Shown: piece after piece, positions 32,294-37,417 of the stretch | How the letters are laid out: each line of letters opens with the position of its first letter | How positions within the stretch are numbered: position 1 is the first letter of the stretch | From: Flavobacteriales bacterium | GTDB taxonomy: Bacteria; Bacteroidota; Bacteroidia; DT-38 | NCBI GenBank assembly: GCA_013214205.1 | Contig: JABSPQ010000451.1 | Span: forward strand, 1-44,502 | Direction of reading: 5' to 3' | DNA length: 44,502 nt | Position numbers and translations under genes: made by a program | Notes under the pieces: model-generated | Told to the model about the DNA's origin: nothing | Seen by the model: only the letters and a program-made list of their open reading frames with translations | Database searches by the model: none

Positions 32294-32866
32294 TTACTCC
32301 GTAGGAATCCCGTTTGTACGTGCATTAGCATTCTTGTTCTGAATAACGCGCTTGTTGGCAATTCTTTCTTGAGACTTTTTTCGTTTACGTTGCTGCGCCA
32401 TTTTCTTACGATACGCATCCTCCATTCGGTACAACATCACCATTTTTTGAGCTGTAATAATTTCCGTCATGTCCTTGTTAAAGGAAATTTCGAAATCAAG
32501 ATCACGCTGCTTTATATCTGTTCTTTGTTGCAACATGGCAATTCCTCTTTCTATGGTTGCCTTTTTTGCGTTCTCTTTTTTTAGTTCAATAAAATCTATT
32601 CTGATTTCTTCCCTAATAGGCATGTGCTTGTCATATACAGTCCAAAACTTAATAGAGTCTTCTTCGGAAAGCTCCATGCGTTTAGTGATAATTGTTCTTT
32701 TCTCCTTTTTTTGTTTAGCAGCTATTTCTTCTTCCGATAATGCAGGCACTTCAGGAAGAAGTGGATCAACCACATCGGTAGAATCGTTAACTTCACTTTG
32801 CGCTGCACAGCTTAATGCAAAAACGAAAACATAAACAGAGATGTACTGTATAATTGTGTGTTTCAT
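32294..32866 (-). CDS. Secreted Spy/CpxP-like helical protein (unknown function)
   Basis: The 190 residues have a signal sequence (ISVYVFVFALSCAAQS; Cys20 could be lipidated, although Ala at -3 is atypical). An acidic Pro-rich stretch follows, then a charged helical domain with ELSEEDSIKFWTVYDKHMPIREEIRIDFIE and MTEIITAQKMVMLYRMEDAYRKKM. The layout recalls Bacteroidota proteins annotated as sensors of ECF-type sigma factors or Spy-like chaperones. The basic tail (KRKKSQERIANKRVIQ) is unusual for a periplasmic protein. Its ATG overlaps the tktC stop (TAATG at 32864-32868), so it is the last gene of the transketolase/vWA operon. Confidence 0.65.
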   Translation of the reverse strand: MKHTIIQYISVYVFVFALSCAAQSEVNDSTDVVDPLLPEVPALSEEEIAAKQKKEKRTIITKRMELSEEDSIKFWTVYDKHMPIREEIRIDFIELKKENAKKATIERGIAMLQQRTDIKQRDLDFEISFNKDMTEIITAQKMVMLYRMEDAYRKKMAQQRKRKKSQERIANKRVIQNKNANARTNGIPTE

Positions 32867-33819
32867 TATTTTCTAGATATTACTTTTTCCACACTGTTCA
32901 CAATGCCTGTAGTGCTAATGCCGTACTTCTCCATCAATTGATCCGCAGTTCCACTTTCTCCAAAGCTATCGTCAACAGCTACCATTTCAATAGGAGTAGG
33001 GGTGTTTTGTCCAAGTACACGTGCTACACTCTCGCCCAAACCACCATTGTACTGATGCTCTTCTGCAGTTACAACACAACCTGTTTTTTTAGCCGAATCG
33101 ATGATAGCTTGTGCATCAAGAGGTTTAATAGTAGCCATGTTAATTACCTCAGCACTAATTCCTTTTTCTGCAAGAATTTCTTCTGCTTCTATTGCTATCC
33201 AAACCAAGTGGCCGGTAGCAATAATGGTAACGTCGGTTCCTTCAATAATAACATCTGCTTTACCAATTTCAAATTTCTTATCAGCAGCTGTAAAGTTTGG
33301 TACCTTTGGACGTCCAAATCTTAAATAAACTGGACCTTCAAATTCGGCAGCTGCAATAGTTGCTGCTTTGGTTTGGTTGTAATCAGCAGGACAAATAACC
33401 GTCATGTTAGGCAACATTTTCATCATGCCAATGTCTTCTAGTATTTGATGCGTTGCACCATCTTCTCCTAAAGTTAAACCTGCATGAGAAGCAGCAATTT
33501 TTACATTTTTGTTACTGTATGCAATAGATTGTCTTATCTGATCGTAAACTCTACCAGTAGAAAAGTTTGCAAACGTACCAGTAAATGGAATTTTGCCACC
33601 CATTGTTAAACCAGCTGCCATGCCCATCATATTAGCTTCGGCTATTCCTACTTGGAAAAAACGATCTGGAAATTCGTCTTCAAACGCATTCATTTTCAGC
33701 GACCCTGTAAGATCCGCGCACAATGCTACTACATTTTCGTCCTTTTTACCAGCTTCTAATAATCCAGCACCAAAACCCGAACGGGTATCCTTTTTTTCAG
33801 TATATGCAATTTTTGCCAT
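32866..33819 (-). CDS. tktC: Transketolase C-terminal subunit (split transketolase)
   Basis: The 317 residues contain the pyrimidine-binding and C-terminal domains of transketolase: [22 protein letters not shown], then GIAEANM with Glu61, the residue that activates thiamine diphosphate, followed by [17 protein letters not shown], and a Rossmann-like C-terminal domain (about 190-310). With the N-terminal subunit it makes the enzyme that moves C2 units between pentose-phosphate sugars. The split form is common in archaea and many bacteria. Here its partner is not adjacent: a vWA gene ends 3 nt upstream and tktN lies before that. Confidence 0.92.
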
Positions 33820-33822
33820 CTC

Positions 33823-35256
33823 TTAATTCAATTTAACACTTACAGTTTTACCCGATTCAACTTTAAACTTTTTTTCAATAGTATACAGTGATTTTCTAGC
33901 CACTTTTGCTCTAAACACAACCCTGTATCTTCCTGGTTGCAACGATAAAGATTCTCTTGTAAAAACTTCACTTAAGTTGCAAACCCATATTAATTCGTTA
34001 TTCTTTTCCTCATACACACTTCCATAACCCACGCTTAGTCCACTAATTACAGCTAGGCCAGGAGAGGGGATGTAAACCGTAGTGGTATGACTTTGCGTAA
34101 CTTTTACATCTTCAATAATCACGCGTGGTAAACTTAGTATTTCGATGTCATATTTCCCAACAAGATAGCGAACTGTTTCATCTATATTTTGAACATTTAT
34201 TGTTTCCATTTCATCTTGCTTTCTCATAATGCAAGCATATTTTTTGCTTTTGGGTGCAGCCGCGCCACCTTGCTTTATAATAATGTCTCCTTGAGCCGCA
34301 TCAACACCTATAATATTATGCCTTCCAGAACGGATATCAATATCTTTTAAAACAATTTGAGGAATTGTATGCACTACCATTCTGTATTTACTTAAAGGAT
34401 CCAAATAAACCGTATCAGGATTGCCTTTTCCATCCAAAGTGTGCATGTAATTGTATTTGATAATCTTTGTTTTGTTATCGTAGAAAGTCATGTTCACATT
34501 AGTTTCTGTTGGTTCATCCATCATGTCCAACAAATTAACTTGAGTTGTAGTTTTATTTAAAGCTTGATTAACAACAATGCTCAACGCATACTTAAAAGTA
34601 GCCTCGTTAGAAGCGTCAAAATAATTTCCGATACATTTAAATACGTCTGTAAATGACTTCTCCATTCCAATGCCAATTACAAAAGGTTTAAGTACAATGT
34701 TTCTTCTTTGCAGCATTAATGATACAGCGCAAGGATCTTCGTCGCAAGCTTCAATACCATCTGTAATAAGTATGATAATGTTTCTGCAATTATCGCAAGG
34801 TGTAAAGTCTTGGTCGGCTTTTTCCAAAGATCTAGCAATAGGGGTAGTTCCCTTTGCTTGAATCTCGTCTAGTTTCTGTTTGATTTTCTCAAAGTTATCA
34901 GGACCAAACGGAACCTCAAGTTTTGTATCTCCACAATCTTGAGGCGGAACAAAGCTTTGGTGTCCATATACCCTAAGAGCTAATTCTAGATTTTTTAAAG
35001 TAGAGAGACTATCCATAGTCTCCTTAAGAAGTCGTTTTGCAACATGAATCTTTTTGTCGCCGCCTTTCCAATCGGCCAACATACTTCTAGAGCAATCAAA
35101 CACAAATAAAATTCGTGTTATAACTTCTTTTTCAGGAGTGTTTGTGGCTTGAGCTCTTAAATTAGAAGAGCCTAATAAAACAAAGAGGGATAATAAAAGA
35201 AAATGTAAACCGCGAAACGCCGAGAATAGATTTAAATATTTTCTTTTAATAGTCAC
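33823..35256 (-). CDS. Secreted von Willebrand factor A domain protein
   Basis: The 477 residues begin with a signal peptide (LHFLLLSLFVLLGSSNLRAQ, cleavage near 36). A vWA domain (about 46-235) keeps a complete MIDAS: DCSRS with Asp54, Ser56 and Ser58, Thr137/Thr138 in KGTTPIA, and Asp166 in ITDGIEACDED. Cys pairs (QDCGD, PCDNC, EACDEDPC) could form disulfides in the periplasm. The C-terminal ~230 residues are beta-rich, with repeated small domains like CarboxypepD_reg/PEGA folds. There is no T9SS tail. vWA/MIDAS domains bind protein ligands through a divalent metal. The gene starts inside tktN (11-nt overlap) and ends 3 nt before tktC, so it is translationally tied to a cytosolic enzyme it has no obvious link to. 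Confidence 0.85.
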   Translation of the reverse strand: MTIKRKYLNLFSAFRGLHFLLLSLFVLLGSSNLRAQATNTPEKEVITRILFVFDCSRSMLADWKGGDKKIHVAKRLLKETMDSLSTLKNLELALRVYGHQSFVPPQDCGDTKLEVPFGPDNFEKIKQKLDEIQAKGTTPIARSLEKADQDFTPCDNCRNIIILITDGIEACDEDPCAVSLMLQRRNIVLKPFVIGIGMEKSFTDVFKCIGNYFDASNEATFKYALSIVVNQALNKTTTQVNLLDMMDEPTETNVNMTFYDNKTKIIKYNYMHTLDGKGNPDTVYLDPLSKYRMVVHTIPQIVLKDIDIRSGRHNIIGVDAAQGDIIIKQGGAAAPKSKKYACIMRKQDEMETINVQNIDETVRYLVGKYDIEILSLPRVIIEDVKVTQSHTTTVYIPSPGLAVISGLSVGYGSVYEEKNNELIWVCNLSEVFTRESLSLQPGRYRVVFRAKVARKSLYTIEKKFKVESGKTVSVKLN

Positions 35257-36091
35257 CTAAAGTTTCACTTAACTGGTTAAGAGCATCTGCCAACTGTTCG
35301 TCGTTTGGCGCAATACCGTGCCAAGAATGATCTTTCATCATAAAATCAACACCATTACCCATGGTCGTTGTCATTATAATCATAACAGGTTTTTCTTTAC
35401 CCGTTCTTGTCTTAGCTTCTTTTAATTTAGCAACAACATCTTCCATGTCGTTACCATTGCTTTCCATTACGTCCCATCCAAAAGCTTGCCATTTTCCTTT
35501 AAGGTCTCCTAAAGACATCACATCTTCTGTAGAACCATCTATTTGCTGACCATTAAAATCTATGGAAGAAATAAGATTGTCGACCTTTTTGGCAGCAGCA
35601 TAAATAGCAGCTTCCCAAATCTGTCCTTCTTGCATTTCGCCATCACCATGTAAAGTGTAAACGATGCTATCTTCTCCGTTTAATTTTTTTGTGAGCGCTG
35701 CGCCAATTGCTACAGAAAGCCCTTGGCCTAACGAACCAGAAGCTATTCTAATTCCCTCTAATCCTTCTTCTGTTGCAGGGTGGCCTTGCAATCTTGAATT
35801 CAATAATCTGAATGTAGCTAATTCCGAAACTTCAAAGTATCCGCTTCTTGCCAATACGCTATACCAAACTGGCGAAATATGTCCGTTAGACAAAAAGAAC
35901 ATGTCTTCGTCTAAGCCATCCATTGTAAAATTCTTTGGATCGTGGTTCATAACCTCAAAATATAGAGCAGTAAAGAATTCAACGCAACCTAAAGATCCAC
36001 CAGGATGTCCAGAGTTTACAGCGTGCACCATTCTTACAATGTCTCTTCTCACTTGAGAACAAACGTTTTTCATTTCACTTATTTCGGCCAT
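35246..36091 (-). CDS. tktN: Transketolase N-terminal subunit (split transketolase)
   Basis: The 281 residues form the diphosphate-binding half: VNSGHPGGSLGCVEFF near 26-40, SNGHISPVWYSVLA at 68-81, the thiamine motif GDG at 149-151 with its partner Asn180 in DFNGQQIDG, and KDHSWHG near the end. This is the full usual length for the split form. It leads the operon tktN-vWA-tktC-Spy-like. Upstream are a TTG-N21-TAAGTTTT promoter and two matching dyads, so the operon is probably under a dedicated repressor. Confidence 0.92.
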   Translation of the reverse strand: MAEISEMKNVCSQVRRDIVRMVHAVNSGHPGGSLGCVEFFTALYFEVMNHDPKNFTMDGLDEDMFFLSNGHISPVWYSVLARSGYFEVSELATFRLLNSRLQGHPATEEGLEGIRIASGSLGQGLSVAIGAALTKKLNGEDSIVYTLHGDGEMQEGQIWEAAIYAAAKKVDNLISSIDFNGQQIDGSTEDVMSLGDLKGKWQAFGWDVMESNGNDMEDVVAKLKEAKTRTGKEKPVMIIMTTTMGNGVDFMMKDHSWHGIAPNDEQLADALNQLSETLGDY

Positions 36092-36117
36092 TATCTAAAT
36101 TTTAATCTCTTTGTGTA

Positions 36118-36140
36118 ATAATTACCGAATTGGTAATTAT
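36118..36140. promoter_or_regulatory. Operator dyad O2 (TTACC-N5-GGTAA) in tktN leader
   Basis: ATAATTACC (36118-36126), GAATT, GGTAATTAT (36132-36140): perfect 9-nt arms around a 5-nt centre, 27 nt before the tktN start. It shares the core TTACC-N5-GGTAA with the site at 36163, with centres 41 nt apart. Confidence 0.65.
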
Positions 36141-36157
36141 TTACTAACTCTCCTTTA

Positions 36158-36189
36158 AAAACTTACCATTATGGTAATAATAGCCGCAA
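36158..36189 (-). promoter_or_regulatory. Promoter of the tktN operon (TTG-N21-TAAGTTTT)
   Basis: On the minus strand TTG (36189-36187), 21-nt spacer, TAAGTTTT (36165-36158), one base off the TAnnTTTG consensus, with the same spacing as the rpmB and rpmG promoters here. Dyad O1 lies across the spacer and the first bases of the -7 box. Confidence 0.55.
36163..36177. promoter_or_regulatory. Operator dyad O1 (TTACC-N5-GGTAA) overlapping the tktN promoter
   Basis: TTACC (36163-36167), ATTAT, GGTAA (36173-36177), a perfect dyad. Its position between the -33 and -7 elements would block polymerase if bound. Confidence 0.65.
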
Positions 36190-36286
36190 ATAAACGCAAT
36201 TCTCTAGACAATGTTAGTACGAAATAGAAAGATGATTAAAGAATTTATGAACTCGTTTTGAACGATGGAAAACACAATGGAATTAA

Positions 36287-36294
36287 TATCTTTG
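36287..36294 (+). promoter_or_regulatory. -7 box (TATCTTTG) for ychF
   Basis: An exact TAnnTTTG box 25 nt before the ychF ATG. The nearest TTG upstream (36258) is 26 nt away, longer than in the other promoters. Confidence 0.4.
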
Positions 36295-36319: not shown

Positions 36320-37417
36320 ATGGGACTAAAGTGTGGAATTGTTGGATTGCCAAATGTGGGAAAATCAACCTTGTTTAATTGTTTGAGTAATGCAAAAGCG
36401 CAAGCTGCTAATTTCCCGTTTTGTACCATCGAGCCAAACGTTGGTGTAATTACGGTTCCCGATAATAGACTAATGCAATTGGAAAAACTGGTTAATCCAG
36501 AAAGGGTTGTGCCTGCCGTTATAGAAATTGTAGACATTGCTGGTTTAGTTAAAGGTGCTAGTAAAGGTGAAGGCTTAGGTAATAAGTTTTTATCTAACAT
36601 TAGAGAAACCGATGCGATTATACATGTAATTAGATGTTTCGAAGACGAGAATGTTGTTCATGTTGATGGTAGCATTGACCCTGTAAGAGATAAAGAAACT
36701 ATCGATTACGAATTGCAGATTAAAGATTTAGAAACGGTTGATAAAAGAATTGAGAAAACTGCCAAGGTTGCCAAAACAGGTGATAAGGATGGTGTTAAAG
36801 AATTAGCGATTCTACAATCGATTAAAGCGATTTTAGAACAAGGTAAATCTGCTAGAGAGTTTGAAACGGACGAAAAAACAGAGATCTTTGTAAAACTTTT
36901 GCAATTACTTACAACTAAGCCTGTTCTTTATGTATGTAATGTAGACGATGAAGCTGCAACTAAAGGGAATGCACATGTTGACGCATTAAAAGAGTTTGTT
37001 AAAAACGAAGACGCAGAGGTAATTATTATTACAGCTGCAACAGAATCGGAAATTGCGCAATTCGACGATCACGAAGAAAAACAAATGTTTTTAGACGACC
37101 TAGGGCTTTTTGAACCAGGTGTTTCTGTGTTAATAAGAACAGCTTATAAATTGTTGAGTTTGTCTACTTATTTTACGGCAGGTGTTAAAGAAGTTAGAGC
37201 TTGGACAATAAATGTTGGCGATAAAGCACCTCAAGCAGCTGGTGTAATTCACGGAGATTTTGAACGTGGATTTATTAAAGCCGAGGTAATTAAGCTTGCC
37301 GACTTTGTTGCTTTGGGTTCTGAACATGCATGTAAAGAAGCTGGGAAGCTTTCTATGGAAGGAAAAGAGTACGTTGTTGAAGACGGAGATATTATGAACT
37401 TCAAATTCAACGTATAA
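36320..37417 (+). CDS. ychF: Redox-regulated ATPase YchF (Obg family)
   Basis: The 365 residues start with GLKCGIVGLPNVGKSTLFNC, with the P-loop GLPNVGKST at 9-17, and IVDIAGLVKGASKGEGLGN as the G3 region. The YchF/OLA1 branch replaces the GTP-specifying NKxD by a motif that favours ATP; here CNVDDEA near 214 occupies that place. The coiled-coil insert (about 130-200) and the C-terminal TGS domain (GVKEVRAWTINVGDKAPQAA, then GFIKAEVIKLADF) complete the normal architecture. It binds the ribosome and affects stress responses. It is divergent from the transketolase operon. Confidence 0.95.
   Translation: MGLKCGIVGLPNVGKSTLFNCLSNAKAQAANFPFCTIEPNVGVITVPDNRLMQLEKLVNPERVVPAVIEIVDIAGLVKGASKGEGLGNKFLSNIRETDAIIHVIRCFEDENVVHVDGSIDPVRDKETIDYELQIKDLETVDKRIEKTAKVAKTGDKDGVKELAILQSIKAILEQGKSAREFETDEKTEIFVKLLQLLTTKPVLYVCNVDDEAATKGNAHVDALKEFVKNEDAEVIIITAATESEIAQFDDHEEKQMFLDDLGLFEPGVSVLIRTAYKLLSLSTYFTAGVKEVRAWTINVGDKAPQAAGVIHGDFERGFIKAEVIKLADFVALGSEHACKEAGKLSMEGKEYVVEDGDIMNFKFNV

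Follow-up and report, generated by a model that had tools for sequence, protein, structure and literature searches.

Known systems with paired operators

Repression from twin operators, by looping or by cooperativity, is known from systems of the lac, gal and lambda type. Operators of the LysR-type regulator CbbR lie at cbb operons, which can include a transketolase gene. LysR-type sites contain a generic T-N11-A box and the lysR gene is adjacent to them, usually in divergent orientation. The locus described here is part of a stretch of 44,502 nucleotides from an uncultured Flavobacteriales bacterium (contig JABSPQ010000451.1), which we refer to as the window. As in the lac, gal and lambda systems, two near-identical dyads stand in helical phase at one candidate promoter. 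The locus also resembles CbbR sites: TACC-N5-GGTA in both dyads fits T-N11-A and the two sites are a few helical turns apart. In contrast to CbbR loci, the neighbouring gene is ychF and no member of the LysR family was detected among the scanned open reading frames (ORFs) of the window. Furthermore both dyads are perfect, whereas at CbbR loci a single dyad is combined with a degenerate activation site, and no Calvin-cycle genes were seen in the window.

In Bacteroides, BtAraR of the NrtR family has paired operators at the araM operon (PMC4666351, doi 10.1093/nar/gkv1005), and the AraR sites in B. vulgatus and B. dorei are 42 nt apart (PMC4666351). What invites the comparison with our locus is a sugar repressor from the Bacteroidota that uses two operators at the same promoter and is released by a pentose (PMC4666351). 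However, the half-site in the BtAraR operator oligonucleotide GCAAAAGTGTTACTTTTACACCCATGC is of the GTGTTA type, whereas the dyads described here have TTACC. The BtAraR regulon consists of arabinose genes, but the window contains neither araR nor arabinose genes. We rejected an AraR/NrtR operator because the published half-site differs from TTACC-N5-GGTAA. A literature search for this motif string returned no match.

Gene neighbourhood and sequence of the dyads

Both dyads are located inside the 228-bp gap between the divergent genes tktN and ychF. tktN (35246..36091, minus strand; Pfam PF00456) encodes the N-terminal half of a split transketolase (281 aa) and is the only transketolase match in the window's own genome (G000). 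The C-terminal half (317 aa) is encoded by tktC (32866..33819, minus strand; PF02779/PF02780). Between the two halves a Pfam scan identified a gene for a VWA-domain protein (33823..35256, minus strand). A VWA-domain homologue is present in 89 of the 110 fetched tktN loci, and the gap between tktN and tktC measures ∼1.4 kb in most loci carrying both halves.

On the other side lies ychF (36320..37417, plus strand; PF06071), a near-universal gene. The probable −7 box of its divergent promoter is TATCTTTG (36287..36294, plus strand), and many orthologous gaps have a GCAAAGATA-like sequence at their ychF end. In most loci for which ychF was found the two genes lie next to each other in divergent orientation, separated by roughly 90–370 bp.

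The initial annotation had reported two TTACC-N5-GGTAA dyads with the same half-sites, centred on GAATT and ATTAT and four helical turns apart, and all of this holds: both dyads are perfect. The leader-side dyad (36117..36141, no strand assigned) reads AATAATTACC-GAATT-GGTAATTATT, a 25-bp palindrome with perfect 10-bp arms and a 5-bp centre. Its core TTACCGAATTGGTAA (TTACC-GAATT-GGTAA; 36122–36136) lies 31–45 bp upstream of the tktN ATG. The promoter-side dyad TTACCATTATGGTAA (TTACC-ATTAT-GGTAA; 36163–36177, no strand assigned) lies 72–86 bp upstream of the ATG and can also be written as TTACCAT-T-ATGGTAA, with 7-bp arms and a 1-bp centre (7+1+7). The start-to-start distance is 41 bp or 3.9 helical turns and thus the dyads are nearly on one helical face: two copies of one dyad in helical phase upstream of one gene, as sought in a twin operator. 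An inverted repeat, TACTAAC/GTTAGTA (7 bp, 64 bp apart; 36142–36148 and 36213–36219), flanks the promoter-side dyad on both sides. No DNA-binding transcription regulator was identified by Pfam among the main ORFs of the window, in agreement with the earlier remark that no regulator gene is adjacent.

Promoter placement and conservation among relatives

The Bacteroidetes-type sigma-A −7 consensus is TAnnTTTG (PMC9723704). The candidate tkt promoter, TTTG-N21-TAAGTTTT (36158..36190, minus strand), has one mismatch to this consensus and its assignment is uncertain. On the minus strand TTG (36189–36187) is followed by 21 nt and then by TAAGTTTT (36165–36158). The promoter-side dyad occupies the spacer and extends over the TAA of TAAGTTTT.

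A comparison with four loci among the closest relatives (L046, L048, L049 and L050) affects this assignment. All four show a clear tkt promoter, with TTTG followed by TACTTTTG or TACATTTG at −23/−24 from the ATG; further upstream, near −80, is the element GTTAATAACTTTTAAAA. At −75/−76 they also carry TAACTTTT, but this is not the −7 box in any of them. The window's TAAGTTTT, at −74, is similar in sequence and has nearly the same distance from the ATG, which makes the promoter as drawn doubtful. Of the promoter TTG-N21-TAAGTTTT proposed initially we thus retain the sequence and its overlap with the dyad, but not with any certainty its role. When the window was aligned to these relatives the leader dyad fell on their −7 box. 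The two alignments pair the upstream element differently, so that the promoter comparison offers evidence of position and no more. This leaves two possibilities: an upstream shift of the promoter in this lineage, or an error in the promoter as drawn.

For phylogenetic footprinting we took tktN orthologues from 60 genomes plus the GTDB collection and examined about 110 upstream regions. The conservation that the initial annotation had asked for was not observed: none of about 105 Bacteroidia regions, all at ≤77% protein identity, has the dyads, the nearest tktN orthologue being at 77%. The sole congener compared (G001, rated 97% complete) gave no strong tktN match and no ychF match, probably as a result of an assembly gap or a missing contig. 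Consequently, dyad conservation can be compared only at ≤77% protein identity. The dyad arrangement appears to be lineage-specific, standing in place of the relatives' conserved upstream element and −7 box.

Frequency of the pair and of its motif

A single AT-rich palindrome with 10-bp arms is by our rough estimate not rare in 44 kb, and the whole window had been scanned for palindromes. The two dyads might therefore be AT-rich palindromes that share a five-base half-site by chance and were spotted because of that scan. In order to quantify this we counted pairs with the same half-site in both dyads and at least two G/C per half-site. As null model we simulated order-2 Markov DNA, with 110 kb of the genome's own intergenic sequence as training set. 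Among 12 Mb of simulated DNA there was one qualifying pair, corresponding to 1.9e-5 per 228 bp and to an expectation of 4e-4 pairs for the 4.6 kb of intergenic DNA in the window. We also used a sample of 1.28 Mb of the genome, of which about 114 kb are intergenic. This real intergenic DNA contains one other qualifying pair (at L287), so the more cautious figures are about 0.002 per 228 bp and about 0.04 for the window's intergenic DNA. The empirical rate is higher than the Markov rate, which counts against an operator reading. Within the window the only other dyad pair with identical half-sites is one of TATTT.

The motif itself is not enriched. There are 19 perfect copies of TTACC-N5-GGTAA in the 5.1-Mb genome compared to 19 for a reversed-pattern control and thus no genome-wide excess. 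Nearly all other placeable perfect copies lie within reading frames, at control density; random occurrence inside genes had been named beforehand as evidence against operators and here it speaks against them. Nor did the genome scan reveal the recognisable regulon that had been anticipated. Allowing up to two mismatches to the extended motif we found 78 copies in the same genome compared to 77 for the control, again without excess. The intergenic near-copies adjoin holA, response regulators, a sigma-70-type sigma factor and other genes that have no common theme. The closest of them, TTACCGAATTAGTAA (L280:6566–6580 of this genome), is located immediately before holA (DNA polymerase III delta) and differs by one base from the leader dyad, centre included. 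Given the lack of excess and of any coherent function among the near-copies, we rejected a regulon defined by the exact or near-exact motif in this genome.

In the sampled 114 kb of intergenic DNA these two dyads are the only perfect copies, compared to 0.15 expected, and nowhere else in the genome do two copies lie 15–45 bp apart. No second copy of the tkt promoter region was detected elsewhere in the genome. A scan of 395 genomes of the class for the twin motif returned this pair as the only AT-rich one; the three others are more G+C-rich. A chance origin would agree with the missing genome-wide excess, with the lack of conservation in orthologous upstream regions and with the occurrence of other identical-half-site pairs in the genome's intergenic DNA. 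However, only 4e-4 (Markov) to about 0.04 (empirical) pairs are expected in the window's intergenic DNA, and the pair coincides with a likely promoter, its sites phased at 41 bp. Chance thus explains the pair poorly and we regard it as an unlikely, though still substantial, alternative.

Proposed regulation of tktN-VWA-tktC

On balance the dyads are probably a lineage-specific operator pair for one regulator, most likely a repressor of the only transketolase found. The lack of a regulator gene within reach and the uncertain assignment of the promoter count against this reading. From the layout of the sites we infer one homodimeric regulator that binds DNA, is encoded at another place in the genome and would recognise both dyads, each dimer binding one TTACC-N5-GGTAA site. 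Since the sites are four helical turns apart, the two dimers could touch or act as one tetramer, possibly with looping. As one site lies on the probable promoter and the other in the probable leader, repression would be the simplest action: one dimer would cover the promoter and the other the leader, so that tktN-VWA-tktC would be repressed. An effector would then relieve the repression.

The dyads could instead serve a regulator of ychF, or of both genes, and not of transketolase alone. The gap is shared and the divergence of ychF and tktN is conserved in many relatives. However, the dyads are more than 100 bp away from the ychF −7 box (36287–36294) but within 30–90 bp of tktN, and we consider this explanation very improbable. 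More improbable still is an mRNA hairpin formed by the leader dyad and acting on tktN translation or mRNA stability: the arms can pair as an RNA stem that is present in the centroid structure, but the leader folds no more strongly than shuffled sequences (z = −0.79), there is neither an Rfam match nor a terminator-like site, and the other dyad would sit in the promoter, outside the transcript. A replication origin at the tktN-ychF gap was rejected, as the GC skew follows gene orientation.

A DnaA-box-like element in tkt promoters

The upstream regions of the relatives contain a different element. Among 104 distinct tkt upstream regions the DnaA-box-like 9-mer TTWTNMACA occurs 34–38 bp upstream of TAnnTTTG in 41 cases and 53–58 bp upstream, two turns further, in 12 cases; the regions are related by descent and these numbers are not counts of independent events. 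For comparison, one TTWTNMACA at 34–38 bp was found in 1.16 Mb of sequence taken from elsewhere in these loci. The loci with the box 35–37 bp upstream of the tkt −7 box include L017, L020, L022, L023, L051, L064 and L113. The 9-mer takes the forms TTATTAACA, TTATCAACA, TTTTCAACA and TTATCCACA, at a fixed distance from the tkt −7 box across Bacteroidia.

Paired boxes precede HU (L299, L308 and L309), dnaB (L298) and purH (L306) in three other genomes, and a related pair lies beside dnaB at L294. In the window's own genome the pair TTATTAACA-N12-TTATCAACA is located upstream of one HU gene (L315). A search of the 1.28-Mb sample of this genome for box pairs gave none, and clusters of three same-strand DnaA-type boxes were absent from eight genomes.

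No TTWTNMACA-type box was found in the window's tkt upstream region. As this tkt promoter lacks the box while the HU gene of the same genome keeps its pair, the twin dyads are unlikely to be a drifted form of the element, and they would need a different reader. The 9-mer at tkt, HU, dnaB and purH possibly marks a replication-linked regulon. A more far-reaching proposal would be that tkt in Bacteroidia belongs to a replication-linked set (tkt, HU, dnaB and purH) with the DnaA-box-like element at a fixed helical phase, and that tkt of this lineage has left the set for a twin-operator regulator although its HU gene keeps the boxes; we put this forward as speculative and rather doubtful.

Implications

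What is proposed here is gene regulation of an ordinary kind, with specifics that are new but unconserved. We found no description of a dedicated transketolase regulator as a pentose-phosphate control point for this group. Should the dyads be operators, the single transketolase found here would have a dedicated regulator and thus be a control point for pentose-phosphate flux. The element common to tkt and DNA-replication genes, in turn, makes a possible link between ribose-5-phosphate supply and replication testable.
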